NCBI GenBank assembly: GCA_013205085.1
Contig: JABMLH010000004.1
Coordinates: 186,001 to 250,000, forward strand
Direction: 5' to 3'
From: Microbacteriaceae bacterium VKM Ac-2854
Lineage (GTDB): Bacteria > Actinomycetota > Actinomycetes > Actinomycetales > Microbacteriaceae
Length of the DNA: 64,000 bases
The notes under the pieces are model-generated. The model worked only from the letters and a program-made list of their open reading frames with translations, was not told the DNA's origin and ran no database searches. Below, piece after piece: positions 52,661 through 64,000 of this stretch. A program made the position numbers and the translations under genes. How positions within the stretch are numbered: position 1 is the stretch's first letter; each line of letters starts with the position of its first letter.

Positions 52661-53202
52661 TGCGGGGGCGGTGACCGCGGGCGGTGAGATCGTGGCCGCG
52701 CCTTTCGGCCACCCGGGCGACTTCCTTCAGCCCCGCCGAAACTTTCCCTCAATCTCCGCACCAGCATCTCCATCGCCGTCTCCGTCTCGCAGTCGGGGTC
52801 GGTCAGCCGCTCCGTGACGATGGCGCCGCACACCGTGATAGCCGGCGATCGCGTGTCGAGGTTGTTCGCCAGGCCCAGGGAGGCGGGACCCTGGATCGCA
52901 TGGCGCGAGGTTTTCGCAAAGTTTTACCAGACCCTGCACTGTGCAGGGTTCTGGAAACTTCTACGAAAACAAGACGATCGACGCGAGCCAACGGCTTCGA
53001 CCCCGCTCACCCGAAAGACTGGCCGCTGTGGACGAATATCCGCGGAACGGCGGGCCGGGACGACGACCCTTTTCGGATGGCGCGCTTCGACCGCCAGCTT
53101 GGAAACCGTGCAAAGTCGCCGCGAATCGGGCCAACGAGTCGGTCACGAGGGCGCGACGGCACGAACAGGGCGCCGTGCGCACCACCGCTAGCGGCGCACG
53201 AA
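52661..53202. other. Gap at the left edge of the island, possible gene remnant
   Basis: More than 500 bp without a complete gene. On the minus strand a frame through 52890-52700 reads like protein (ASLGLANNLDTRSPAITVCG, LTDPDCETETAMEMLVRRL), but it has neither a start nor a proper stop, since it runs into the NIPSNAP gene. It may be a fragment of an inserted gene. One 61-bp palindrome is at 52910. Confidence 0.4.
52910..52970. promoter_or_regulatory. 61-bp palindrome, copy A
   Basis: Centre 52940; the inner 9 bp (ACCCTGCAC / GTGCAGGGT) and outer 7 bp (GTTTTCG / CGAAAAC) of each 30-bp arm pair perfectly, with 22 of 30 positions pairing overall. It matches the copy at 53203-53263, 293 bp away. 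Candidate operator shared by the island. Confidence 0.7.
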
Positions 53203-53263
53203 GTTTCGGCGTAGTTTTATCAAACCCTACACAGTGAAGGGTCGTGGAAACTGTGGCGAAAAC
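53203..53263 (+). promoter_or_regulatory. 61-bp palindrome, copy B, covering the start of the AlbA_2 gene
   Basis: Centre 53233, with the same outer and inner elements as copy A (AGTTTTATCAAACCCTACAC on the left, GTGAAGGG...CGAAAAC on the right). It contains the GAAGG Shine-Dalgarno and the GTG start codon of the 53244 gene, so a bound protein would block both transcription and translation. Confidence 0.72.
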
Positions 53264-55046
53264 TACCCGGGCCGACGTCGAGGCGGCGTTGAACTCGATC
53301 GCGGACGGCGGCAGCGCCAACGCACGCGAAGGACTTCGAATCGACTTCAAAGTCGACGGACGCTCGTTGAAGGACGACCTTTCGAACATCGCCGAGGCGG
53401 CGGCGTGCTTCGCCAATGCCGACGGCGGCTACGTCATCTGCGGGGTTCGCGACCGACCAGGCGGAATCGACGCTTTCGTCGGCACACGGCTCGATCCGGA
53501 GAAGACCCGGATGCGGATCTATGAGATCACGCAACCGCACCTGTTCGTCACGGCGGAGGTCCTGAACCACCCCGCCGGAGACGTACTCCTCATCGAGGTC
53601 CCGCGCGGACTTGCCGTGCACAGCGTCAGCGGCAACTTGCCTCACGAACGCATCGACGACAACTGCGTACCGATGAACACCGACCGGATCGCCTCGGTCG
53701 TTGCCGAACGTCGTGGATCGGATTGGTCGGCGGAGGCCACCGATACACCAGCCAGCGCCGCCGATCCACTTGCCATAACAACGGCACGCGGTCTCTTGGC
53801 GCGTTCCTCCGACGCGAAGACTCGCCGGCTTGCAGCCGAACCTCAGGACATCGATGTGCTGCGCGCGCTCGGAGTCGTGCACGACGGAACACGGCTGACG
53901 AATGCGGGATCCCTGCTTTTCGTGGGCAGCTCCGACGCCGGAGCGGCGATGTCGTACGTGCATCGACGCACGCCGGCCGGATCCATCTCCGCCAACGAGC
54001 ACTTGTCCGGGCCTCTTGTTCTCATCCTCCAGCGCCTCTTCGAGTTCATCGCGGCGCGCATCGATACCACCCCAGTGTCGATCGGGCGGGGCCAGCAGAT
54101 TCACGTCGCCGATCTGCCCGAGGCTGCGATACGCGAAGCCGTCGTCAACGCCGCGATGCACCGGGAGTATCGGACCGACGGCTGGATCACCGTCGAGCAC
54201 ACTCAGACGCAGCTGGCAGTCACCTCACCAGGAGGCTTCGTCAGCGGGGTTCGAGTGGACAACGTCCTGACCACCTCCTCGCGACCGCGCAATCGGCAGC
54301 TCGCGGGTGCGATGCGCGCTCTCGGTTTCGCTGAGACCGCCGGCTCCGGAGTCGACAAGATGTACGCCGAAATGACGCGGCTCGGGCATCAACCGCCCTC
54401 ATTCGACGCGTCCGGGGATTCGGTGCGCGTCTCGCTCCGCGGCGGCGCCCCGAACACCGCCTTGACCCGATTCGTCGCAACCCTTCCTCAGGAAGAAACC
54501 AGCGACGCCGACACCATGACGATTCTGCTCATGCTGCTGACGCAACGAATCGTGGATGCCGAGCAGCTCGCACCGATTCTGCAGAAGCCAACTACCGACG
54601 AAGCTCAGGCCGTGCTCGAACGTCTCAGTTCCGATCGCGTCGAACTTCTCGAACCAACGAGGGAAACCGCCCGGCGCAGCCGGCCGAAGTACCGGTTGCG
54701 AGAACACCCACTCACCGCTCTCGGATCGGCGGTGACCTATAGGCGCCGAACATCCGACCAGCTGGATCGCAAGGTCATCGAGCTACTCACCGAGACGCAG
54801 CGGATCAACGCCCGGATGATCCGTGTGCTTCTGGACCTCGACGCCCAGACGACGTCGCGCCTCGTCGCCGATCTCGTACAACGCGGGATTCTGGAGAAGT
54901 TACCGGGTGCGGAGCGGGGCCCGAGCGTGGCATACGGTCCGGGTTCGAAGTTCCCACGGAAAGGGCGGAAGGCGCCCAACCGGAGCGCTGAAACTACCGA
55001 CGAGCCTCTCGACCTTCAGCTCGATGTGGATTTTGAGGAGAGCTGA
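53244..55046 (+). CDS. AlbA_2 / Schlafen-type ATP-binding protein
   Basis: 600 aa. AlbA_2 domain at about residues 20-150 (LRIDFKVDGRSLKDDLSNIA, ACFANADGGYVICGVRD), a GHKL-type HATPase_c_4 domain at about 265-390 (AIREAVVNAAMHREY, GFAETAGSGVDKMY), and a C-terminal winged-helix part (LLTETQRINARMIRVLLDLD). Proteins of this plan are putative transcriptional regulators and occur widely in phage-defence islands. GTG start within palindrome B implies autoregulation. Codon use is less GC-biased than in the genes to the left. Confidence 0.85.
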   Translation: METVAKTTRADVEAALNSIADGGSANAREGLRIDFKVDGRSLKDDLSNIAEAAACFANADGGYVICGVRDRPGGIDAFVGTRLDPEKTRMRIYEITQPHLFVTAEVLNHPAGDVLLIEVPRGLAVHSVSGNLPHERIDDNCVPMNTDRIASVVAERRGSDWSAEATDTPASAADPLAITTARGLLARSSDAKTRRLAAEPQDIDVLRALGVVHDGTRLTNAGSLLFVGSSDAGAAMSYVHRRTPAGSISANEHLSGPLVLILQRLFEFIAARIDTTPVSIGRGQQIHVADLPEAAIREAVVNAAMHREYRTDGWITVEHTQTQLAVTSPGGFVSGVRVDNVLTTSSRPRNRQLAGAMRALGFAETAGSGVDKMYAEMTRLGHQPPSFDASGDSVRVSLRGGAPNTALTRFVATLPQEETSDADTMTILLMLLTQRIVDAEQLAPILQKPTTDEAQAVLERLSSDRVELLEPTRETARRSRPKYRLREHPLTALGSAVTYRRRTSDQLDRKVIELLTETQRINARMIRVLLDLDAQTTSRLVADLVQRGILEKLPGAERGPSVAYGPGSKFPRKGRKAPNRSAETTDEPLDLQLDVDFEES

Positions 55047-55112
55047 GACGCGCTGGAAACGACGCAAGCATGCACTCGGGCGAATCACTCGATCGAATAG
55101 CCTCCAGACATC

Positions 55113-55691
55113 ATGGATACGAAGCAGACGAAAACCATCGGGGAGCATCACGTTGCGGCCGAACTCGCTCGACGCAACTGGGCTCCGGCGCTCACCCGCG
55201 ACGGCCTTGCCCGAACTGACATCCTCGCCGTCCGTCAGAGTGGAGGCGAGCGAAATCTCGTTGAGATCCAGGTGAAAGCGGCGCGCGGTCCGAAGTGGGA
55301 GTCGATCACGTGGTTGCTCGGTCGGAAGTCGCAGACGCCGAGCCTGCACGATTCCGAGTACTTCGTCCTTGTTGCGATACCGATGGATCTCAGCCAGCAT
55401 CCTCGCTGCTTCGTCGTGCCGCGTATCCATGTGGCTGCGGCCGCCTGGATCCAGCACATGAACTGGCTGACGGAACCTGAAATTCCGGTCGGCAAGCGCA
55501 ACGCAACTCTCGACCAGGCGCGGGTCTCGATTTCGGTCTTCCGCGAGTATGAGGATCGGTGGGATCTGCTGGATGCCGGTCAGTCGAGCGCCCCCATCCT
55601 GTTGCCTGCCAATCTCCGAGAGCTGGCGACGCTGGACCGGATCGGACTCCCTGAGGGTCATGAGTGGCGGGAGAAGCTTCCAATCTGGTGA
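55113..55691 (+). CDS. PD-(D/E)XK nuclease-like protein
   Basis: 192 aa. Residues 10-55 have the restriction-endonuclease core: helix GEHHVAAELARRNW with Glu11/Glu17, Asp36 in RTDILAV, then VEIQVKAARG with Glu51, Gln53 and Lys55 (the E/QxK strand). The remainder has Trp-rich strands (ESITWLLGRK, AAWIQHMNWLTEP). Probable nuclease of the DUF4365/Mrr-like superfamily, from motif only. It lies 66 bp behind the AlbA_2 gene and may form a unit with it. A TAGCCT box is 9 nt before the ATG. Confidence 0.7.
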   Translation: MDTKQTKTIGEHHVAAELARRNWAPALTRDGLARTDILAVRQSGGERNLVEIQVKAARGPKWESITWLLGRKSQTPSLHDSEYFVLVAIPMDLSQHPRCFVVPRIHVAAAAWIQHMNWLTEPEIPVGKRNATLDQARVSISVFREYEDRWDLLDAGQSSAPILLPANLRELATLDRIGLPEGHEWREKLPIW

Positions 55692-55771
55692 GGGCAGCTA
55701 TCCCTTTGTGCATGTCTTTCTCGCGCTTCGGCGCAGGGACCGGCGCGGCGCCGCAGGGACTGGCAAGTCAC

Positions 55772-56950
55772 TCAGCCCAGCAGTGCCGCCAACCCGCCTT
55801 CGTTCACGATCGTGATGCCGTAGTCGCGGGCCTTGCGCGCCTTGCCGCTGAGTGAATCCGGATCGGCGGCGACGAGGAGACGCACCTCCTTCGTCACCGC
55901 GCCGTGCGGAACGTAGCCGCGCTCCGTCAGCTCGCGATGCCAATCGTTGCGCGGACGGACCATCTCGCCGGTCAAGACGACGAGGTCGCCCGGCTGCAGC
56001 GCGAAGTGCTGGGTGACGCTCGCGCGGGTGATCTCGCGCGGCTCCGTCGCCTCCGCGATCCGCTCCTCATCGACATGCAGCAATACAGCGACGAGCGCGA
56101 GGTCGTCGAGTTCCTCGTCGGTGAGCACGCCGTCGGCCCAGGCGACGGAGACGAGGTCGTCGAAGTACAGGTCGTTGAGGTGCTGCGCGGTAACGCGTCC
56201 GATGCCGAGCTCGTTCGCGAGCGCGATCAAAGCCTCCTCCTCGTGCGCGGAGATCTCGCGGTCGAGCAGGCAGCGGTCAAGCAGCGCGAGGTACTCCTGG
56301 TGCTCGACCGGCCCGGAGATGTCGGGCATCCGACCGACGATGCGAGCGAGGAAGGATGCGGGCACCGCGTCGGACTCCGGCCGCGCCGTCCACATCGTGC
56401 GCCGGCGCGGCACGGGCGGCCAGCCGTCGATGGGCAGGTCCGTCCAGGATCCGCCGGCGGCGATGTACTGCTCCAAGAGTTGTCCGGTCGCGAGGGCGTC
56501 GACGGAGGCGCGGTGTGCGCCGATCAGATCGATGTCGTAGGCGGCGCAGCAATCGGCGAGCGAGCGCCCTCCGCCGGGGATGAACTCGCGGGCGAGCTGC
56601 ATCGTGCAGAGGAACGGCTGCAGCGTGACGTCGACGCCCATGCGACGCAACTCGGCGGTGAGGAAGCGTCGCTCGAAGCTCGCGTTGTGAGCGACGACGA
56701 CGCGCCCATCGAGGTGGGTGAGCAGGTCGGCCGCGATGGAGGCGAACGTCGGCGCGTTCAGGATGTCGCGGGCATTGATGCCGTGGATCCGCTGCGCGCC
56801 GAGGTCGCGGTCGGGGTTGATCAGCGTTTCGTAGGCGGCTTCGAAGCGGCCGCGCTCGTCGAGGTGGACGACGGCGATCTCGACGATACGATCGTGCAGC
56901 TCGGGACGGACGCCCGTGGTCTCGAAGTCGATGACGGCGTAGCCGGGCAT
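55772..56950 (-). CDS. DnaQ-type exonuclease with TerB-like and BRCT domains
   Basis: 392 aa. The DEDDh exonuclease spans residues 1-170 (VIDFETTG with Asp8 and Glu10, HNASFERRFL, GAHRASVDALAT). A helical TerB-like middle (EHQEYLALLDRCLLDREISA, WADGVLTDEELDDLALVAVL) follows, and a BRCT domain closes it (GDLVVLTGEMVRPRNDW, KEVRLLVAADPDSLSGKARK). 3'-5' exonuclease for repair or a defence accessory. ATG 56950 chosen because the family motif starts there; the frame is open further upstream. TACGAT lies about 38 nt upstream as a possible -10. Confidence 0.87.
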   Translation of the reverse strand: MPGYAVIDFETTGVRPELHDRIVEIAVVHLDERGRFEAAYETLINPDRDLGAQRIHGINARDILNAPTFASIAADLLTHLDGRVVVAHNASFERRFLTAELRRMGVDVTLQPFLCTMQLAREFIPGGGRSLADCCAAYDIDLIGAHRASVDALATGQLLEQYIAAGGSWTDLPIDGWPPVPRRRTMWTARPESDAVPASFLARIVGRMPDISGPVEHQEYLALLDRCLLDREISAHEEEALIALANELGIGRVTAQHLNDLYFDDLVSVAWADGVLTDEELDDLALVAVLLHVDEERIAEATEPREITRASVTQHFALQPGDLVVLTGEMVRPRNDWHRELTERGYVPHGAVTKEVRLLVAADPDSLSGKARKARDYGITIVNEGGLAALLG

Positions 56951-57033
56951 GTGCGGGTCCCCCTGGGTTGTGACGTGTGGAGGCATCGTAGCGGAGGGAC
57001 GGGACATCGGGTCGCGACGGGGCGGAGTGGCGC

Positions 57034-57064
57034 TTGACAACCCAAAGCAGCGCTCTGTCACAAT
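57034..57064 (+). promoter_or_regulatory. Sigma70-type promoter of the broken MerR gene
   Basis: TTGACA (57034-57039) and CACAAT (57059-57064), with 19 bp between them, 25 bp before the ATG. The spacer is slightly long; TTGACAAC with a following TGTCACAA forms a loose inverted pair that could be an operator. Confidence 0.55.
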
Positions 57065-57088
57065 CGAAGCGAACGGATCGGAGGCGAC

Positions 57089-57479
57089 ATGGCATTCACG
57101 ACCGCGTTGACGTCCGTGATGAGTGGCGCTTCGCAGCGGCAGTTGGCGCATTGGCGCGCTACAGGAATTCTCGTGCCCGAGACGGAACACGATGAACGTC
57201 CTTACCTCTACTCGTTCCGCGACATCGTGGCGCTGCGAACGTACGCTTGGTTACGCGAGACTCACTCTCAACCCCGACCCGACGACCTGGCAAGTCTTGG
57301 TGGAGACTGAGATTGAAGTTCGTCGCGAACACGAGCGACTGGATGAGTTCTCCGATGAGTCATCACCGACGCTCAAAGAGTTCAAGAAGAAGACCGAGAC
57401 GGTCGAGCGTGGGTTGGCCTACTTGCGGAAGAACAGCCTGGAGCCGGATGTGCTGGGCGATGCCGAGAACCACGCATGA
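57089..57479 (+). pseudogene. MerR-like regulator, frame-shifted and truncated
   Basis: Intact ATG, GGAGG and promoter. Residues 1-52 read as a MerR-type helix-turn-helix: ASQRQLAHWRATGILVPETE and LYSFRDIVALRTYAWLR. The frame then ends early after QPRPDDLASLGGD. In the next frame a further 70 codons remain open (TWQVLVETEIEVRREHERLD, ERGLAYLRKNSLEPDVLGD), ending at 57479. Either a one-base frameshift or a fusion of two gene ends. Such MerR/DUF433 pairs are often antitoxins. Confidence 0.6.
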
Positions 57480-57522
57480 GGGCTGAGTCTGCCTTGAATC
57501 GATTTCGCACGGGATGGACCGT

Positions 57523-57774
57523 ATGAGCCTCTACCGCGTCGACGGTGACTCGCTCGAGCCCGTTACGAACAAGACGTTCGCGGCGCTGCAGATCCGCGAG
57601 CGCGAGGCTCTGCAGCGCCTCCTCCGCTCCGACCTCGTCATCTTTGATGAGGGCCTCGGCGACGATCGGCTGGAACCTCAAGGAGTCGGTGCTGGCGATG
57701 ATGGGTTCGAAGGTGTGGCGCCCTTCGCCCACTTGACTATCCACCTGGCGCCGAGGAGACTACCGCCGACATAG
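57523..57774 (+). pseudogene. Truncated nuclease, DUF91/NucS-like N-terminus
   Basis: Only the first about 40 residues (MSLYRVDGDSLEPVTNKTFA, IREREALQRLLRSDLV) match the start of DUF91-type endonucleases (full length about 300 aa). After that the reading loses resemblance and ends at 57774. The conserved nuclease core is missing. Probably left by the same deletion that damaged the MerR gene. Confidence 0.55.
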
Positions 57775-57895
57775 TGATTCAACCGGCCGAGATCATTGCT
57801 GCGGGGAGGGGCTGAGGCGTCACAATGCAGCCGAGGACGGCGCCTCGCGGAGCACCGTGGCGACAAAAGTCGGAGGCATCGGAGAGAATTGGATC

Positions 57896-58348
57896 ATGGT
57901 GAACAAGGTGGTGCTGGAGACGTCTGCCGACGGTGGCGTCGGCTTGCGCATCGACGCGGTCACCGGCCCGCTGCCTGCGCGCACCCCGGCGGGCACTGAG
58001 CTACACCTCGGCAGCCAAGACCTTATTCGCCTGGCGGATTTCGCGACATTCCACGGCTTCACGATCTCATCTTTCATGATCGCAGACGGGCACCTCGTGC
58101 CGCTTCGCCCTGAAGAAGAGTCCGGGCTCTCGGACGAGATGGTTGAGGCCGTGAGGAACCATGGCGGCGCCGAGCTTGAAGCCGCTATGCAGGACGAGTA
58201 CGACGGTCTATACGTGGTCGGGGTGACGCTGATTGCGACGAGCGGCATGCGGATCTCAGTCCGCCGACGAGGCTTCGTCGATACCTCAGTGGTGCAGGAA
58301 GCCGAGCAGCTCCTTCGGTCAGCATGGCAGGAGCTCCACCTCTCTTGA
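57896..58348 (+). CDS. Unknown protein, first gene of a three-gene cassette
   Basis: 150 aa from ATG 57896 (GGAGAG 10 nt upstream; a GTG at 57857 is an alternative). MVNKVVLETSADGGVGLRID opens a beta-rich first half, then an acidic helix (EESGLSDEMVEAVRNHGGAE) and strands YDGLYVVGVTLIATSGMRIS. No membrane segment and no recognised family. Its last 25 bases overlap the start of the membrane gene 58324, so the two are coupled. Confidence 0.7.
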   Translation: MVNKVVLETSADGGVGLRIDAVTGPLPARTPAGTELHLGSQDLIRLADFATFHGFTISSFMIADGHLVPLRPEEESGLSDEMVEAVRNHGGAELEAAMQDEYDGLYVVGVTLIATSGMRISVRRRGFVDTSVVQEAEQLLRSAWQELHLS

Positions 58349-59016
58349 AGGACAGATTCATAGGCGTGCTGCTCGACGCCGTCAAGGTCGCCGTAGCGGC
58401 ATGGGCGGCCATCTACGTCGAACCGAAAGTGTCGGAGATTCTCCCGACGATCGGGGCGCCCCTGCAGTACCTAATTGCTGCATTGCTGACCGCGGCAGTG
58501 CTGGAAGTCACTCTGCAACTGCTGATCGGTTGGCCAAGGATCGCAGTCACATGGAGCGTGAAGGGCGAGGACGGCCCGATCTCGGAAGTGATCGCGAGGA
58601 TTCGACCTGCCAGCAATGAGTCCCAGCCGTTCATAGTCAAGGTGTCCGTCCCGAATGGTGGCTGGTTGGCTCGGCTGGCGCTTCGCTCCGCGATCCGTCC
58701 TGGCGCGCTTCTCCGGATCCGCATTGAGCAGGCGTCCGTGGTCCCCACGACGGAGAACTCCTACAAGAAGAACGGGGTTCCGACGACCATCCCGAACGAC
58801 GAGACGAACGGATTCATCGTCGACCTCGGTCGACCACCAGGACCGGGCCCATGGCACTGGGCCGAAGTGCGTTGGCGTGATGAGTCGACGCCGAGGGGCG
58901 ACGACTTCAACATCCTGTGCACATTCCAACACCCCAAGCCTTCCAAGCAGTTCTTGCTTAACCTCTTCATCCGGCGTTCGATGAACGCCCGCAAGTTCCG
59001 AGTCGTAGGATCCTAA
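58324..59016 (+). CDS. Unknown membrane-anchored protein of the cassette
   Basis: 230 aa. Two N-terminal membrane helices (VLLDAVKVAVAAWAAIYV and PLQYLIAALLTAAVLEVTLQ, residues about 15-60) are followed by a beta-rich soluble domain (GWPRIAVTWSVKGEDGPISE, FIVKVSVPNGGWLARLALRS, WHWAEVRWRDES). It ends basic (NARKFRVVGS). A plan of two helices plus a soluble domain is common for membrane effectors. No family recognised. Translation coupled to both neighbours: 25-base overlap left, 1-base gap right. Confidence 0.72.
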   Translation: MAGAPPLLKDRFIGVLLDAVKVAVAAWAAIYVEPKVSEILPTIGAPLQYLIAALLTAAVLEVTLQLLIGWPRIAVTWSVKGEDGPISEVIARIRPASNESQPFIVKVSVPNGGWLARLALRSAIRPGALLRIRIEQASVVPTTENSYKKNGVPTTIPNDETNGFIVDLGRPPGPGPWHWAEVRWRDESTPRGDDFNILCTFQHPKPSKQFLLNLFIRRSMNARKFRVVGS

Positions 59017-59017
59017 T

Positions 59018-60046
59018 ATGCCCACAATGAGTCAAGAATCCGTCAAAGTGCTCCCTATGCACTCCAAATCTGCCATGTCTCTGGACGAGATACGGGAGGA
59101 GATGGTGAAAACTCGCCCGAGCCTTGCCGGCTTCAAGGGCGGCTGGGCAAGCATCAGCGACTACGAGTCGAACCTGCGCAGGGCGGGCGTGGAGCCACCT
59201 GTGTCCGCGCCCCAAATTGCAGAGGCAACGGACCTGCTGCCACGGATGCTCATGGCGAGGTTCTACTATTGGGACCCGGCTCCTTCCGGCTTGCGCGATC
59301 AGCAGGACCACGACCCGCTCGTCACGCGCCGCCTCAACGCGATTGACGTCATGATCACGGAGCCTGCACAGGGACGCATCGGACTCTTGTTCTCAACAAG
59401 GACCCCGACCTACCTCGGTAGGAGCGACGGGATCATTGCCTCGCTGAACAAGATCCTTCAAACCAAAGACGGCACGATCAGAATCGACCGGCGGCAGTCC
59501 CATCTCCAGTTGGAGGACGACGAGATCTTCCTTTGGCTGGCCGTCCAGCACCGTGACAGCCCGCAGCTCGCACCAGACATCCGACTCGACCAGATCGCCG
59601 GTATCAGCAGCAGGGACAACGCGAGAAGAACCGCGGACCTGAGGTACGGCGTCGACTTCGAGCGGTCGAACTTCCTCACCGCAGTCGCGGAGAAGGACAC
59701 GCTCGGGCCCATCGACATCTGCTTCGTCAACAACGTCGGCGAGGACAATCACTCCTATGAGGTGCGGCTGCACGTCGATGGAGGCTTCGAGATTAGGAAG
59801 AACGCACTGCGCTTCCCCGACGAGCTCGACCGACCGAACCTAATGCTGGAGACGAGTCTGATTCTGGCCTATTCGCTGATTCCCAGGTTCAACGACATGT
59901 ACGTGGCTGACACAGCGAACTGGTCCTCGCAGCGCGTCGAGGTCATCCAAAACGCGATGACAGCCCTTGAAGAGCGTTATAGGTCTTTGAAGGCGGTGCT
60001 CCACAAACAACTCGTTGGAGACGCCGGACTGCAAACTGTTTCATAG
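59018..60046 (+). CDS. Unknown cytosolic protein of the cassette
   Basis: 342 aa from ATG 59018 (a second ATG, at 59027, gives MSQES). N-terminal helices (MSLDEIREEMVKTRPSLAGF), a middle beta region (NAIDVMITEPAQGRIGLLFS, IRIDRRQSHLQLEDDEIFLW), then LGPIDICFVNNVGEDNHSYE and a C-terminal coiled segment (SQRVEVIQNAMTALEERYRS). No catalytic motif recognised. It starts 1 base after the membrane gene, so is surely in the same operon. Confidence 0.72.
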   Translation: MPTMSQESVKVLPMHSKSAMSLDEIREEMVKTRPSLAGFKGGWASISDYESNLRRAGVEPPVSAPQIAEATDLLPRMLMARFYYWDPAPSGLRDQQDHDPLVTRRLNAIDVMITEPAQGRIGLLFSTRTPTYLGRSDGIIASLNKILQTKDGTIRIDRRQSHLQLEDDEIFLWLAVQHRDSPQLAPDIRLDQIAGISSRDNARRTADLRYGVDFERSNFLTAVAEKDTLGPIDICFVNNVGEDNHSYEVRLHVDGGFEIRKNALRFPDELDRPNLMLETSLILAYSLIPRFNDMYVADTANWSSQRVEVIQNAMTALEERYRSLKAVLHKQLVGDAGLQTVS

Positions 60047-60173
60047 ACCGGAAAGCGACGGCGGTGTCAAAGCGTCGTAGCTACGGAGGGGGTTGGTGAG
60101 CCCCGAGATTACGCTGGCGATCAAAGCGTCGTCGAAGCCGAGGAGGCGACGACCAACCTCGGTCAGCAGTGGC

Positions 60174-60413
60174 GTCCCGAAAGCCCTGACCGAGCTGATG
60201 ACCCTGGGTCGGACGATGACGAAGCGAGCGGCCGTCGTCCTGGCCTAATTCGACCGGCCCGGCAGCAGCAACGGACTGACCGAAGCGATGAACGGCCGCC
60301 TCGAACACCTCCGCGGCTCCCCCCTCTGCTTCCGCAACCTGACCAACTACATCGCCCGATCACTCCTCGAAACCGACGGCTTCAGACCACGATTACACCC
60401 TGGACTGCGATGA
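60174..60413 (+). pseudogene. ISL3-family transposase remnant (C-terminus)
   Basis: Only the last about 80 codons remain, with an in-frame TAA at 60246: GVPKALTELMTLGRTMTKRA, stop, FDRPGSSNGLTEAMNGRLEH and NLTNYIARSLLETDGFRP. This is the end of the ISL3 DDE transposase including the catalytic-Glu helix. No clear terminal repeats were seen. It marks past IS insertion inside the island. Confidence 0.8.
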
Positions 60414-60502
60414 GCCCCTTTGTCGTGTCTCCGGAAGAGGTGAGCGGAGGGTTGGAGAACCGCCATAGGAGTGCCACCAGGGGTGCCATCGCCAGCGCAG
60501 CG

Positions 60503-60739
60503 TCAGCGCGTCGGGAACGCGTGCTGGAGGTAAGCGACAAGCTCGAGAGCCATCATCCGGTCGAGCTGAATCGTCTGACTCGACTTGGGCTTGGACTTCC
60601 GCTCGTCCGAACCGAAGGTCGAGATGTGCACAATCTTCGAGCCATCCGGGGCGTCGACCTCCTGAACGAAGCAGTCCACCTCGGTGGTGTGTGGCTTCAC
60701 CGACTGGGATCCGTACTGGATGGAACGGACTTTGGCCAT
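60503..60739 (-). CDS. Small hypothetical protein (78 aa)
   Basis: MAKVRSIQYGSQSVKPHTTE then VDCFVQEVDAPDGSKIVHIS, SKPKSSQTIQLDRMMALELV and AYLQHAFPTR: a compact beta sheet ending in a helix. ATG 60739 with GAGGATC upstream. I recall similar short proteins near phage or defence genes but cannot name a family. Sits about 65 bp behind the GIY-YIG/DUF2075 gene on the same strand. Confidence 0.65.
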   Translation of the reverse strand: MAKVRSIQYGSQSVKPHTTEVDCFVQEVDAPDGSKIVHISTFGSDERKSKPKSSQTIQLDRMMALELVAYLQHAFPTR

Positions 60740-60804
60740 GAGGATCCTCGCTTACTAGTGGTCGACGCGACGCGTCAAAGTTCCGGTATCTTCGTTGATC
60801 ACAA

Positions 60805-62541
60805 CTACCTGCTGGTCCAAGCCGGCAGCCGCGCACGAAGGTGCTCACGCAGGCCAGGATCGCACACGTAGACGTACGTCCCGCGCATGCCTCGCGTCAT
60901 CAGCACCGAGTAGATGTTCCGCACATAAGCCAACAGGTCATCGTCGGTGTAGACGATCCCCCGACGCGGGTTGTTCTCCTTGCCCTTCTTGTCGCGATAG
61001 TTCTCGCGTTCGAACACCACGGACCCGCGTTCCCTGTCGTATCGCAGGTCGGCGCCGATGATGACCCCGGCGTAATTCAGGTCATACCCCTGAACCGTGT
61101 GGATGGATCCGACCTGGTCGATCGCGCCGCTGGAGTTGATCCAGTCGGTGTCCGTCTGGTTCCAGCGGAGCCGATACCCCTCGACATCGATGTCGTATGC
61201 CGAGCGATCGGTCTTTGTCGTCCAGTCCCACGCGAACCCGGCGACGAGCCGTGACAAACCGACCTCGGCATCCCTTGCTCGGATCTGAGCATGCATGGCG
61301 CCAAGATCATCGAAGAATTGCAGATCGTATTCGCCGAACGACGGCGATCCGGCCGGCGACGTTCCGGACAAGAGGGAACGCACGAACGCGAGGTAGTCGT
61401 TCCCGCCGCTGACGCGCATCTGCGACAAGAGAGCGAAGTGACGACTCTGAGCCTGAGCAGACTTGACAAGTTCACGAACGAACGGGCTAGGTAAGTCGGC
61501 CGGGCGTACGGCCTGCTCCTCGTCGAGCAGCAGCACCCGGTGCTTACTGCGGGCGAGCACCCAGTCGAGCTGCGTGAACTCGTCATCGTCGCGTCCGAAG
61601 AGCTTGAGGTTGATCTCAGCGAACGCCGTGTTTTGGGCGGCCGATGGCTGATTGGCGCGATGATTCAGGCGGTGTGCCTCGTCGACAACGACTAAGTCGT
61701 AGACCGCGTCCCCCTTGCCGAGTTGTGCCGGCGAAAGCACCGGGGTCCGCTGCAGTCCGGGAGTATTTTTGAACACCTTCGTGATGGAGGCGCGGAGCGA
61801 TTGCTGCGGGACTACCAGAGCGATGCTGAGTCCGCTCAAGAGCTTCCGGTTCTCCTCGACAAAGAACTCGGAGAACATCGAGTCGTGGTCGGGCTCATCG
61901 TCCTCCGTGATCGCGGCGATGTCGCGGAGCAGCTTCAGCAGGTAAATTCCGACAATCGTCTTCCCGGTGCCAGCGCTCCCCTGGACAACGGCGGTGCTTC
62001 CGTCAAGGCTGTGAGCAAGATCGTGGAGCAGACCCTCGACGATGTTCTCCATTGCAGCGGCCTGGTCACGGTTCAGGCTCTTGAAAGGAGAAAGTTTGAA
62101 CAGGTCACTGTTCTCGATCTCCGGGATGGAACGGGAGAACAGCTGCTCAGCCCGAAGCTGTTCGAACACCTCGCGGAACGTCTCGCGGTAGAGCGCGCGG
62201 TCGTAGTAGTCCGCGTCGATAACTCCGCTGTTGCGGTTGAGGACGACGCGGGCGCCGTCGCCGGAAAACCAGCGAATCAGATGCGATTCCAGGTCGAGGC
62301 ACACGGACTTGTTGAAGCGGTCCGCCAAGACGACTCGGACCGTCTCGAGGCCAGCCTTCGATTCGGAGTCCCGGTGCTGCTTCATCCGAGAGGTGACGTT
62401 GAGCGACTCGCCGACGTAGACCCGGCTGCTGTCGTTGAGCGTGTAGACAACGGGCCAGTTCGCGAATCTGCCGGCCGCAGAGGTCCAGCGCCCCATCTCC
62501 TCAGGCGAGAACGCGGCGCGCTCGATCCTAAAGTCGGTCAT
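60805..62541 (-). CDS. GIY-YIG nuclease fused to DUF2075 helicase
   Basis: 578 aa. Residues about 25-110: GIY-YIG endonuclease (VVYTLNDSSRVYVGESLNVT, with the family's VY...VYVGES pair). Residues about 170-578: DUF2075 SF1-type helicase with Walker A GSAGTGKT (Lys194), VVVDEAHRLNHR, LLLDEEQAVRP, SIHTVQGYDLNYAGVIIG and YSVLMTRGMRGTYVYVCDPG. Nuclease plus helicase in one chain is typical of defence or repair enzymes. ATG 62541 overlaps the MazG-like stop by 14 bases. Confidence 0.87.
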   Translation of the reverse strand: MTDFRIERAAFSPEEMGRWTSAAGRFANWPVVYTLNDSSRVYVGESLNVTSRMKQHRDSESKAGLETVRVVLADRFNKSVCLDLESHLIRWFSGDGARVVLNRNSGVIDADYYDRALYRETFREVFEQLRAEQLFSRSIPEIENSDLFKLSPFKSLNRDQAAAMENIVEGLLHDLAHSLDGSTAVVQGSAGTGKTIVGIYLLKLLRDIAAITEDDEPDHDSMFSEFFVEENRKLLSGLSIALVVPQQSLRASITKVFKNTPGLQRTPVLSPAQLGKGDAVYDLVVVDEAHRLNHRANQPSAAQNTAFAEINLKLFGRDDDEFTQLDWVLARSKHRVLLLDEEQAVRPADLPSPFVRELVKSAQAQSRHFALLSQMRVSGGNDYLAFVRSLLSGTSPAGSPSFGEYDLQFFDDLGAMHAQIRARDAEVGLSRLVAGFAWDWTTKTDRSAYDIDVEGYRLRWNQTDTDWINSSGAIDQVGSIHTVQGYDLNYAGVIIGADLRYDRERGSVVFERENYRDKKGKENNPRRGIVYTDDDLLAYVRNIYSVLMTRGMRGTYVYVCDPGLREHLRARLPAWTSR

Positions 62542-62848
62542 ATTTCTGACTGCTTCCGCGAGATTTTTCCACCGGGTACTTCTCCCGGGTGGTCGCGAGC
62601 TTGGCGAGCACGATCTCCGATGGGTCCAAAGAAAGCCGGTCTGCAAGCAGGAAACAATAGGTGAGCACGTCTGCGAGTTCGGCCTGGACCCGGTCGCCGT
62701 CCGCTTCAGCGCTCCATTGGAAGCACTCGAGAAGCTCCGCCGCCTCGATCGAGATGCTCTTCGCGAGATTCTCGGGACTGTGGAACTGAGCCCAATCGCG
62801 CTCGGCCACGAACGCGCGGAGTTCGTTGAGAACGCGGGCATCGGTCAT
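62528..62848 (-). CDS. MazG-like nucleotide pyrophosphohydrolase
   Basis: 106 aa all-alpha NTP-PPase: helix with EAAELLECFQW (ExxE) and AELADVLTYCFLLADRL (ExxD), the metal-binding residues of the MazG superfamily; end KLATTREKYPVEKSRG is typical for the short RS21-C6-like enzymes. It would cleave (modified) NTPs to NMP and PPi. ATG 62848 is 6 nt after TAGGGT, leaderless; coupled to the helicase by overlap. Confidence 0.88.
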   Translation of the reverse strand: MTDARVLNELRAFVAERDWAQFHSPENLAKSISIEAAELLECFQWSAEADGDRVQAELADVLTYCFLLADRLSLDPSEIVLAKLATTREKYPVEKSRGSSQKYDRL

Positions 62849-62894
62849 GGGTTCACCCTAGCGAGAGCTGAACCCACGACCTCACGGCCAAACC

Positions 62895-64000
62895 TCACCC
62901 CAACGCCGCCCGCACCGGCTCCGCCACCCGAACACCCAGGTACCCCATCTGCTCCATCAACGCCCGCACCACGGCCTTGCCCAGCTCCACCGGCACCGCA
63001 TTCCCCAGCTGCCGCTGCGCATCCGCCCGCTTGCCGACGAGCCTGAACTCGTCCGGGAACGACATTAGCCTCTTCATCTCGTTCACGCGCAGCCGTCGTG
63101 CCCTTTCGACCCCGCCGCCCACATCCACGTTCTCCCAGTGGAACGGGCCGACCCACGGACCCGGCTGTGCCTGCACGGTCGACGAAGGCCGGTTCGGGTC
63201 GAGCCGCAGCAGGAACGTCCAGTAGCGGCTGCGCCATTCGAATCGGTCACGACCGCCGTAACGGGAGGTGTGCCAGAGGTAGTTCTGCCCGGGCGGCACC
63301 TCGGCCGCCAGCTCGCCGTACTCGCCTTCGACGATCTCGTCGTCCAATGCCAACGACAGCGGGAGGCCACGGAACGCCTCAGCGGCGGTCACATGCGGGA
63401 TCTTCGACGGATCGATCGTCCGGTCGCGCTCGCTCCAACCCGAGTGAGTCGGCTCCGGGAAGACGAACTTCTCGCCGTCACGGCGTCCGACGACGAAGAC
63501 GCGCCGCCGAAGCTGCGGCACGCCGTAGTCGGCGGCGAGCAGCACCTTCCACTGCGGGTTGTAGCCGAGTTCAGCGAGCGACTTCAGCAGCCGTTCGAAC
63601 TGGGCGCGATGGGTCTTGTAGGTCAGGCCCTGCACGTTTTCGAGCACGAACGCCTCAGGCTGGGTCTCGCGAACGACGCGCACGTACTCGTCGAGCAAGG
63701 ATGCATTCGGGTCGCGGCTCTCGCGTTTCTCCTCCAACCAGAAACCGGACTTGCTGAAGGGCGTGCAGGGCGGCCCGCCGATCACCAGTACTGGTTCGCG
63801 CGGCTTCAGCCCGGCCTCAGCGAGCAGCTGCTCCGCCGGCAGTGTCCGGATGTCGCCCGTGAGCGTGTTCGCACCGTGGAAGTTCTCGCGCAGAGTCGCG
63901 AGCGCGGGGTCGTTGTAGTCGGTCGCGACGGTTACGCGCAGCAGTCCGGCCCCGGGGTCGTCTCGATCCAGCGGTGCCGCGTCAGCCCGTTCGGTCGCAA
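62895..64000 (-). CDS. dcm: DNA (cytosine-5) methyltransferase, 5' end outside the window
   Basis: The frame is open to the right edge; 368 residues are visible. Motif IV GGPPCTPFSKSG with the catalytic Cys, motif VI AFVLENVQGLTYKT, motif VIII PQLRRRVFVVG, a target-recognition stretch (residues about 200-290 of the visible part), and motif X QLGNAVPVELGKAVV. Motif I lies outside or at the edge. Methylates C5 of cytosine in a specific site. No neighbouring restriction enzyme within the window unless it is the 55113 protein; it is therefore an orphan or belongs to genes further right. Confidence 0.9.
   Translation of the reverse strand, partial: ATERADAAPLDRDDPGAGLLRVTVATDYNDPALATLRENFHGANTLTGDIRTLPAEQLLAEAGLKPREPVLVIGGPPCTPFSKSGFWLEEKRESRDPNASLLDEYVRVVRETQPEAFVLENVQGLTYKTHRAQFERLLKSLAELGYNPQWKVLLAADYGVPQLRRRVFVVGRRDGEKFVFPEPTHSGWSERDRTIDPSKIPHVTAAEAFRGLPLSLALDDEIVEGEYGELAAEVPPGQNYLWHTSRYGGRDRFEWRSRYWTFLLRLDPNRPSSTVQAQPGPWVGPFHWENVDVGGGVERARRLRVNEMKRLMSFPDEFRLVGKRADAQRQLGNAVPVELGKAVVRALMEQMGYLGVRVAEPVRAALG

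Follow-up and report, generated by a model that had tools for sequence, protein, structure and literature searches.

A three-gene cassette in the genome of Microbacteriaceae bacterium VKM Ac-2854 constitutes a single unit that spreads between actinobacterial lineages, and we propose that it might be a compact, horizontally transferred operon for phage exclusion (abortive infection) on the Rex principle, a reading that we regard as evenly poised between right and wrong. The cassette lies in a stretch of 64,000 nucleotides, hereafter the window (contig C13, 186001-250000, of a 4.75-Mb genome in 18 contigs), and encodes three proteins that we term P1, P2, and P3. Its integrity as a unit, its dispersal, and its genomic setting were computed directly, and the fold of P3 and the topology of P2 are computational predictions. 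A sequence-only reading of this DNA had taken the cassette for an unknown anti-phage system. This is still the best reading and is now better supported because the genes stay together, move, adjoin defense or mobility genes in seven of eight settings, and include one whose predicted fold resembles that of RdgC and RexA; the function remains a computational proposal.

The three open reading frames (ORFs; Table 1) are coupled, just as the sequence-only reading had described, by a 25-base overlap between P1 and P2 and a 1-base gap between P2 and P3, with coordinates, strand, and spacing all reproduced. They are presumably cotranscribed. The frame of P1 is open already from a GTG at 57857, and the 40 bases 5′ of the gene, which are similar in Compostimonas suwonensis, probably represent its ribosome-binding region, to judge from the letters.

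Table 1. Cassette genes and other features in the window and in fetched loci (L numbers); aa, amino acids
Feature	Position	Strand	Remarks
P1	57896-58348	+	150 aa; no assigned fold
P2	58324-59016	+	230 aa; candidate membrane effector
P3	59018-60046	+	342 aa; predicted RdgC fold; candidate DNA sensor/clamp, putatively DNA binding
Probable P1 ribosome-binding region	57856..57895	+	blastn homology to Compostimonas begins at 57856
Two-gene stretch	53244-55691		600-aa SLFN_AlbA_2 + HATPase_c_4 protein, then 192-aa protein
DEDDh exonuclease	55772..57190	-	PADLOC candidate PDC-S48; Pfam + PADLOC; neighbor
MerR-like short ORF, probably truncated	57089..57310	+	PF13411, E 1.3e-5; neighbor, outside module
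Presumed transposase remnant	about 60080-60415		single-copy DNA in the genome
SLFN group 3 helicase	60805..62841	-	family scan; weak GIY-YIG match; neighbor
C5-cytosine DNA methyltransferase	62895..64000	-	extends beyond window end; whole in L004 8896-10056
Unnamed 349/343-aa gene	L003 5338-6387, L005 11424-12455	both -	no Pfam/PADLOC match at E 0.01
XhoI-type enzyme + Eco57I-type methylase	L012 6235-8599		G612; adjacent to each other
Serine-integrase element of G961	L018 8360-17905		~9.5 kb; ends approximate
Serine-integrase element of G1093	L019 9280-19501 + L025 1-2860		~11 kb; ends approximate
299-aa neighbor in G1705	L024 10903-11802	-	no Pfam/PADLOC match at E 0.01

Eight distinct carriers were recovered, namely, the window's genome (G000), Compostimonas suwonensis (G112; Microbacteriaceae, Actinomycetota), which holds the nearest named copy and belongs to the window's own family, and the genomes G018, G393, G612, G961, G1093, and G1705. 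A protein search with P3 gave matches in 2 of 99 relatives, and profile searches gave matches in 4 of 398 genomes of the family, 2 of 396 of the order, 3 of 394 of the class, and 1 of 396 of the phylum, as well as in 1 of 111, 1 of 100, and 2 of 99 genomes in further runs; these counts, from 1993 genome-searches in total, include the window's own or the center genome, and genomes recur between searches. The three genes indeed co-occur elsewhere: the P1-P2-P3 order and tight spacing are retained in all eight carriers, the junctions ranging from -25 to +15 bases and the genes preceding P3 matching P1 and P2 in size and order. For P1 and P2, the significance of homology was assessed against Compostimonas and against G018 (for the latter, E of 6e-9 and 2e-5 in blastp of sequence pairs, with no correction for composition); in the remaining five genomes, homology is read from position, size, topology, and alignment, and the start codon of P1 is uncertain in G612, G961, G1093, and G1705. 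The Compostimonas copy shows the same overlap and gap as the window and identities of 67% (P1), 59% (P2), and 81% (P3), with Ka/Ks values of 0.13, 0.19, and about 0.02, respectively, at a Ks near saturation. P3 is both the largest and the most conserved gene of the cassette. Because the order and spacing recur in every copy and the Ka/Ks is low versus Compostimonas, the cassette is more than a chance arrangement.

Comparison of window positions 53001-64000 with the 21-kb Compostimonas locus by blastn revealed a single similar block of 2.2 kb (57856-60018), nucleotide homology being limited to the module and the 40 bases ahead of P1. Matrices of pairwise identity, one for each protein, correlate with one another (r of 0.91, 0.91, and 0.96; 0.86, 0.85, and 0.93 without the closest pair). 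The P3 proteins of G612, G961, and G1705 are 58-68% identical to one another, G961 being from a different family, whereas those within the window's family are only 23-29% identical, apart from the window-Compostimonas pair; the window P3 shares 24-25% identity with those of its own-family relatives G018 and G393. Since the P3 proteins are closer across families than within the window's family, the gene set moves between lineages. As to the vehicle, tblastn of P3 found no match among plasmids or phages, that of P1 and P2 none among plasmids, and that of two diverged P3 proteins none among plasmids, while four viral-contig scans yielded no confirmed relative; carriage by plasmids or phages was therefore rejected.

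Searches of Pfam, PADLOC, NCBIfam, and PHROGs gave no significant match for P1, P2, or P3 of the window, the sole row at E ≤1 being PF18820 against P1 (E 0.084). When the 24 proteins encoded by the eight copies were scanned, six Pfam rows and two PADLOC rows appeared, each from a single member (best E of 0.016 and 0.017, respectively), and PDB sequence profiles gave nothing for P3 and rows for P1 and P2 at E 0.09-0.97, which we took as chance. A named family was hence dropped for each protein, and homology to housekeeping families, raised by the sequence-only reading as the contrary outcome, was not seen in the library scans. Its statement that no family could be named holds for sequence and needs amending for structure, in that P3 has a recognizable predicted fold.

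The predicted model of P3 matches RdgC best by far, followed by Iml3, halves of TBP, and other kinetochore proteins. The model, a monomer built from only 8 sequences, aligns to RdgC with 9% identity and a root mean square deviation of 4.1, a long C-terminal helix (299-339) lying beyond the aligned range, and it appears to display the RdgC-like two-domain fold found in the Rex sensor protein. P3 might thus form a ring-shaped dimer that binds DNA. A link at the sequence level to RdgC or RexA was sought and rejected: the PF04381 profile matched none of the P3 loci of six carrier genomes at E up to 10 (a subthreshold match, at E 0.059, falls elsewhere in G612), hhalign of the P3 profile against RdgC gave 0.2%, and in hmmsearch (294 sequences) and hhalign (65 sequences), RdgC, RexA, and CarolAnn gp44 did not rise above decoys. 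These negatives do not refute the fold because CarolAnn gp44 and Lambda RexA, which are termed homologs and of which a weak HHpred match to DUF4747 is noted (PMC6426606, in part), also miss each other in our control (blastp E 1.9, no significant match).

P2 possesses hydrophobic N-terminal 19-mers at residues 12-30 and 50-68, which an AlphaFold2 model (predicted local distance difference test score, 77.6; predicted template modeling score, 0.66) renders as helices at 5-39 and 45-68, and residues from about 70 to 229 are predicted to form an Ig/cohesin-like beta-sandwich, such sandwiches also being its best structural rows in VIA-align. This agrees with the earlier description of the middle protein as two N-terminal membrane helices with a soluble domain. 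Across the copies, two N-terminal hydrophobic segments exceed the threshold in three and one in the remaining five, and the charge is neutral to basic. A Cap15-like reading of P2, which we had first expected, was unsupported by the model; Cap15 was not among the best 50 VIA-align rows, which is in itself no proof. P1, the first gene in all eight copies, encodes a small acidic protein (isoelectric point of 4.7) that might act as an adaptor or inhibitor.

Taking these findings together with the Rex-like pairs of actinophages, by analogy with which we assign sensing to P3 and membrane action to P2, we postulate that P3 would dimerize round DNA and sense phage DNA or intermediates of phage replication or recombination. 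The signal would pass from P3 to P2, perhaps with P1 as a bridge between them, upon which P2 might oligomerize and damage or depolarize the membrane, and the infected cell would thereby cease to support the phage. Tentatively, then, and with confidence slightly short of even, we picture a three-protein immunity on the Rex principle that satellites and islands spread among actinobacteria and that couples a DNA clamp of the RdgC fold to a membrane effector made of two helices and a beta-sandwich. Two features weigh against this proposal, namely, that P3 is acidic in all eight copies and that P2 is poorly conserved and unlike RexB; E. coli RdgC and CarolAnn gp44 are acidic as well. On this reading, we class the cassette as a variant of Rex-principle exclusion and not as a member of the RexAB group.

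The genomic setting of the copies is of a piece with mobile defense, as defense, restriction, or mobility genes lie near seven of the eight. Within 6 kb of the cassettes, 66 called proteins gave matches to 73 PADLOC families at 1e-15, a count of families and not of proteins; several of the 25 families listed are methyltransferase models. By comparison, 3 families were matched by 87 control proteins, called in eight 14-kb stretches of these genomes. The control stretches, at round coordinates on cassette-bearing contigs, were chosen before their content was seen and not at random, and were scored for PADLOC matches only; genes in both sets were called by our own crude script. PADLOC family matches are more numerous near the cassettes than in these hand-picked controls, and a scatter of homologs outside islands, which would have told the other way, was not seen. 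Directly beside the cassette of G612 lie an XhoI-type restriction enzyme and an Eco57I-type methylase, and the flank of G393 encodes a PDC-S28 helicase (E 7e-271), a weak HNH match, and DUF2971. In G1705, we found a tyrosine integrase, PD-Lambda-1 (E 1e-106), and a protein with a type IV restriction match, and also a 299-amino-acid neighbor whose letters hint at a class III nucleotide cyclase of the Pycsar kind. The Compostimonas flank carries a TrwC relaxase and a Mutator transposase; that of G018 has no nameable defense, restriction, or mobility gene.

In G961 and G1093, the cassette resides within serine-integrase elements, toward the end opposite the integrase. That of G961, which also encodes a primase-polymerase, splits a gene for a tadA-like type II/IV secretion ATPase, the ends of the element falling within that gene (the front part of the ATPase by Pfam match, the end part read by eye). 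That of G1093, with a capsid protein (PF05065), is inserted in a small pilin-like gene, which we take to be Flp pilin, and resembles a phage satellite that is equipped with a capsid gene, here in an actinomycete. The search for attachment-site repeats in both elements gave matches of 8-11 bases only, which are not evidence. These elements invite the alternative that the cassette serves its mobile carriers, with a P3 clamp, held at the membrane by P2, anchoring, partitioning, or regulating the replication or recombination of satellites and integrative elements. RdgC itself is recombination associated (PMC11077077, in part), which is in keeping with such a role; however, the two integrase elements differ in their remaining genes, and in the window, G393, and G612, the copies adjoin restriction or defense-candidate genes with no integrase among the scanned neighbors. 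We consider this alternative unlikely.

The phage-exclusion reading finds a matching setting in the window itself. The helicase-nuclease and methyltransferase neighbors named in the sequence-only reading are present, as the SLFN group 3 helicase, the PDC-S48 exonuclease, and the C5-cytosine methyltransferase, and the flank also encodes a MazG-like protein. Of the broken genes that it placed around the cassette, the upstream one is a 73-amino-acid ORF that has a MerR_1 match and then a stop and lies outside the Compostimonas-homologous stretch; the dead ISL3 transposase is plausible, to judge from its letters. The MerR-like ORF also matches phrog_31673 and, weakly, the PADLOC model mad1, which belongs to the MADS defense system. 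Farther upstream, the 600-amino-acid protein is followed by a 192-amino-acid protein with no family match, whose letters hint at a PD-(D/E)XK nuclease; the two are possibly another defense pair. An unnamed gene, 51% identical between G018 and Compostimonas, occurs in both flanks on different sides, and its C-terminal half presumably resembles abortive-infection domains; because the remaining fetched loci did not yield this gene and the sides differ, it was dropped as a fourth component.

Two further alternatives appear to us improbable, to a like degree. In the first, the cassette would be a toxin-antitoxin-like module, with P2 as a membrane toxin and P1 and/or P3 as neutralizer or sensor, defense being one use among others; the small overlapping or abutting genes, the neutral-to-basic membrane protein, and the acidic small protein fit this, but the largest and most conserved gene is P3, which is unusual in antitoxins, and library scans gave no significant toxin-family match. 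In the second, the resemblance of P3 to RdgC would be a chance arrangement and its function unrelated, as the low identity, large deviation, shallow model, and lack of sequence signal might suggest. Least probable is nucleotide signaling with P2 as a cyclic-nucleotide-binding effector of the Cap15/OptE (S-2TM-beta) type, which its two membrane helices and all-beta domain, and the cyclase-like neighbor in G1705, recall, but no synthase family was matched in the operon in scans of P1 and P3, the predicted fold of P3 is a different one (RdgC), and the best rows of P2 are Ig/cohesin-type sandwiches, a missing row excluding nothing.

Were the phage-exclusion reading correct, the cassette would add another lineage to the RdgC/RexA fold, one whose effector does not resemble RexB, and a candidate defense family missed by sequence profiles would have been revealed through fold comparison. 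A second, independent pairing of this fold with a membrane protein, in which the partner is another one and a subunit has been added, would point to a fold that can serve repeatedly as a sensor of phage DNA, and the cassette would supply new, sequence-diverse material for testing that idea. The molecular interactions behind the activities of RexA are described as unknown and many mechanisms as a mystery (PMC11077077, in part). Among the titles listed from the open-licence literature in PubMed Central, none is on a three-gene RdgC-fold system of this kind, and the four papers there that name Compostimonas suwonensis, judging by title, include none on defense.

Several parallels with known systems are apparent. 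Iml3 and the inner-kinetochore proteins are eukaryotic, have another function, and match P3 far more weakly than does RdgC. From E. coli RdgC, a recombination-associated protein, P3 differs in lacking a PF04381 match, in its extra C-terminal helix, in adjoining a membrane-protein gene, and in its patchy distribution among actinomycetes. The effectors Cap15 of CBASS and OptE of Panoptes have, like P2, two membrane helices and then an all-beta domain (PMC12657218, in part); the P2 model, unlike these, is a sandwich and not a barrel, and the operon has no matched nucleotide-synthase family. The closest parallel is with the Rex systems. RexA counts RdgC, IML3, and CHL4 among its structural relatives, and Rex-like pairs occur in actinophages (PMC11077077, in part). 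In Sbash and CarolAnn, defense is reported to employ a membrane protein jointly with a RexA-like one (PMC6426606 and PMC6426596, in part); loss of membrane potential was proposed for the former (PMC6426596, in part), and the latter requires both genes, its membrane partner having four predicted helices (PMC6426606, in part). Unlike these, the cassette has three genes in all eight copies, with the fold-bearing P3 gene last, behind that of P2; in place of the four helices of RexB, P2 has one or two hydrophobic segments, modeled as a two-helix hairpin with a beta-sandwich; and DUF4747 is absent from the Pfam rows of the 24 proteins at E ≤1, and no sequence similarity to RexA was detectable. Shared with the Rex systems are a protein of predicted RdgC-like fold, as reported for RexA, encoded beside a membrane protein, a compact gene set on mobile carriers, and, for Sbash and CarolAnn, hosts that are likewise actinobacterial.
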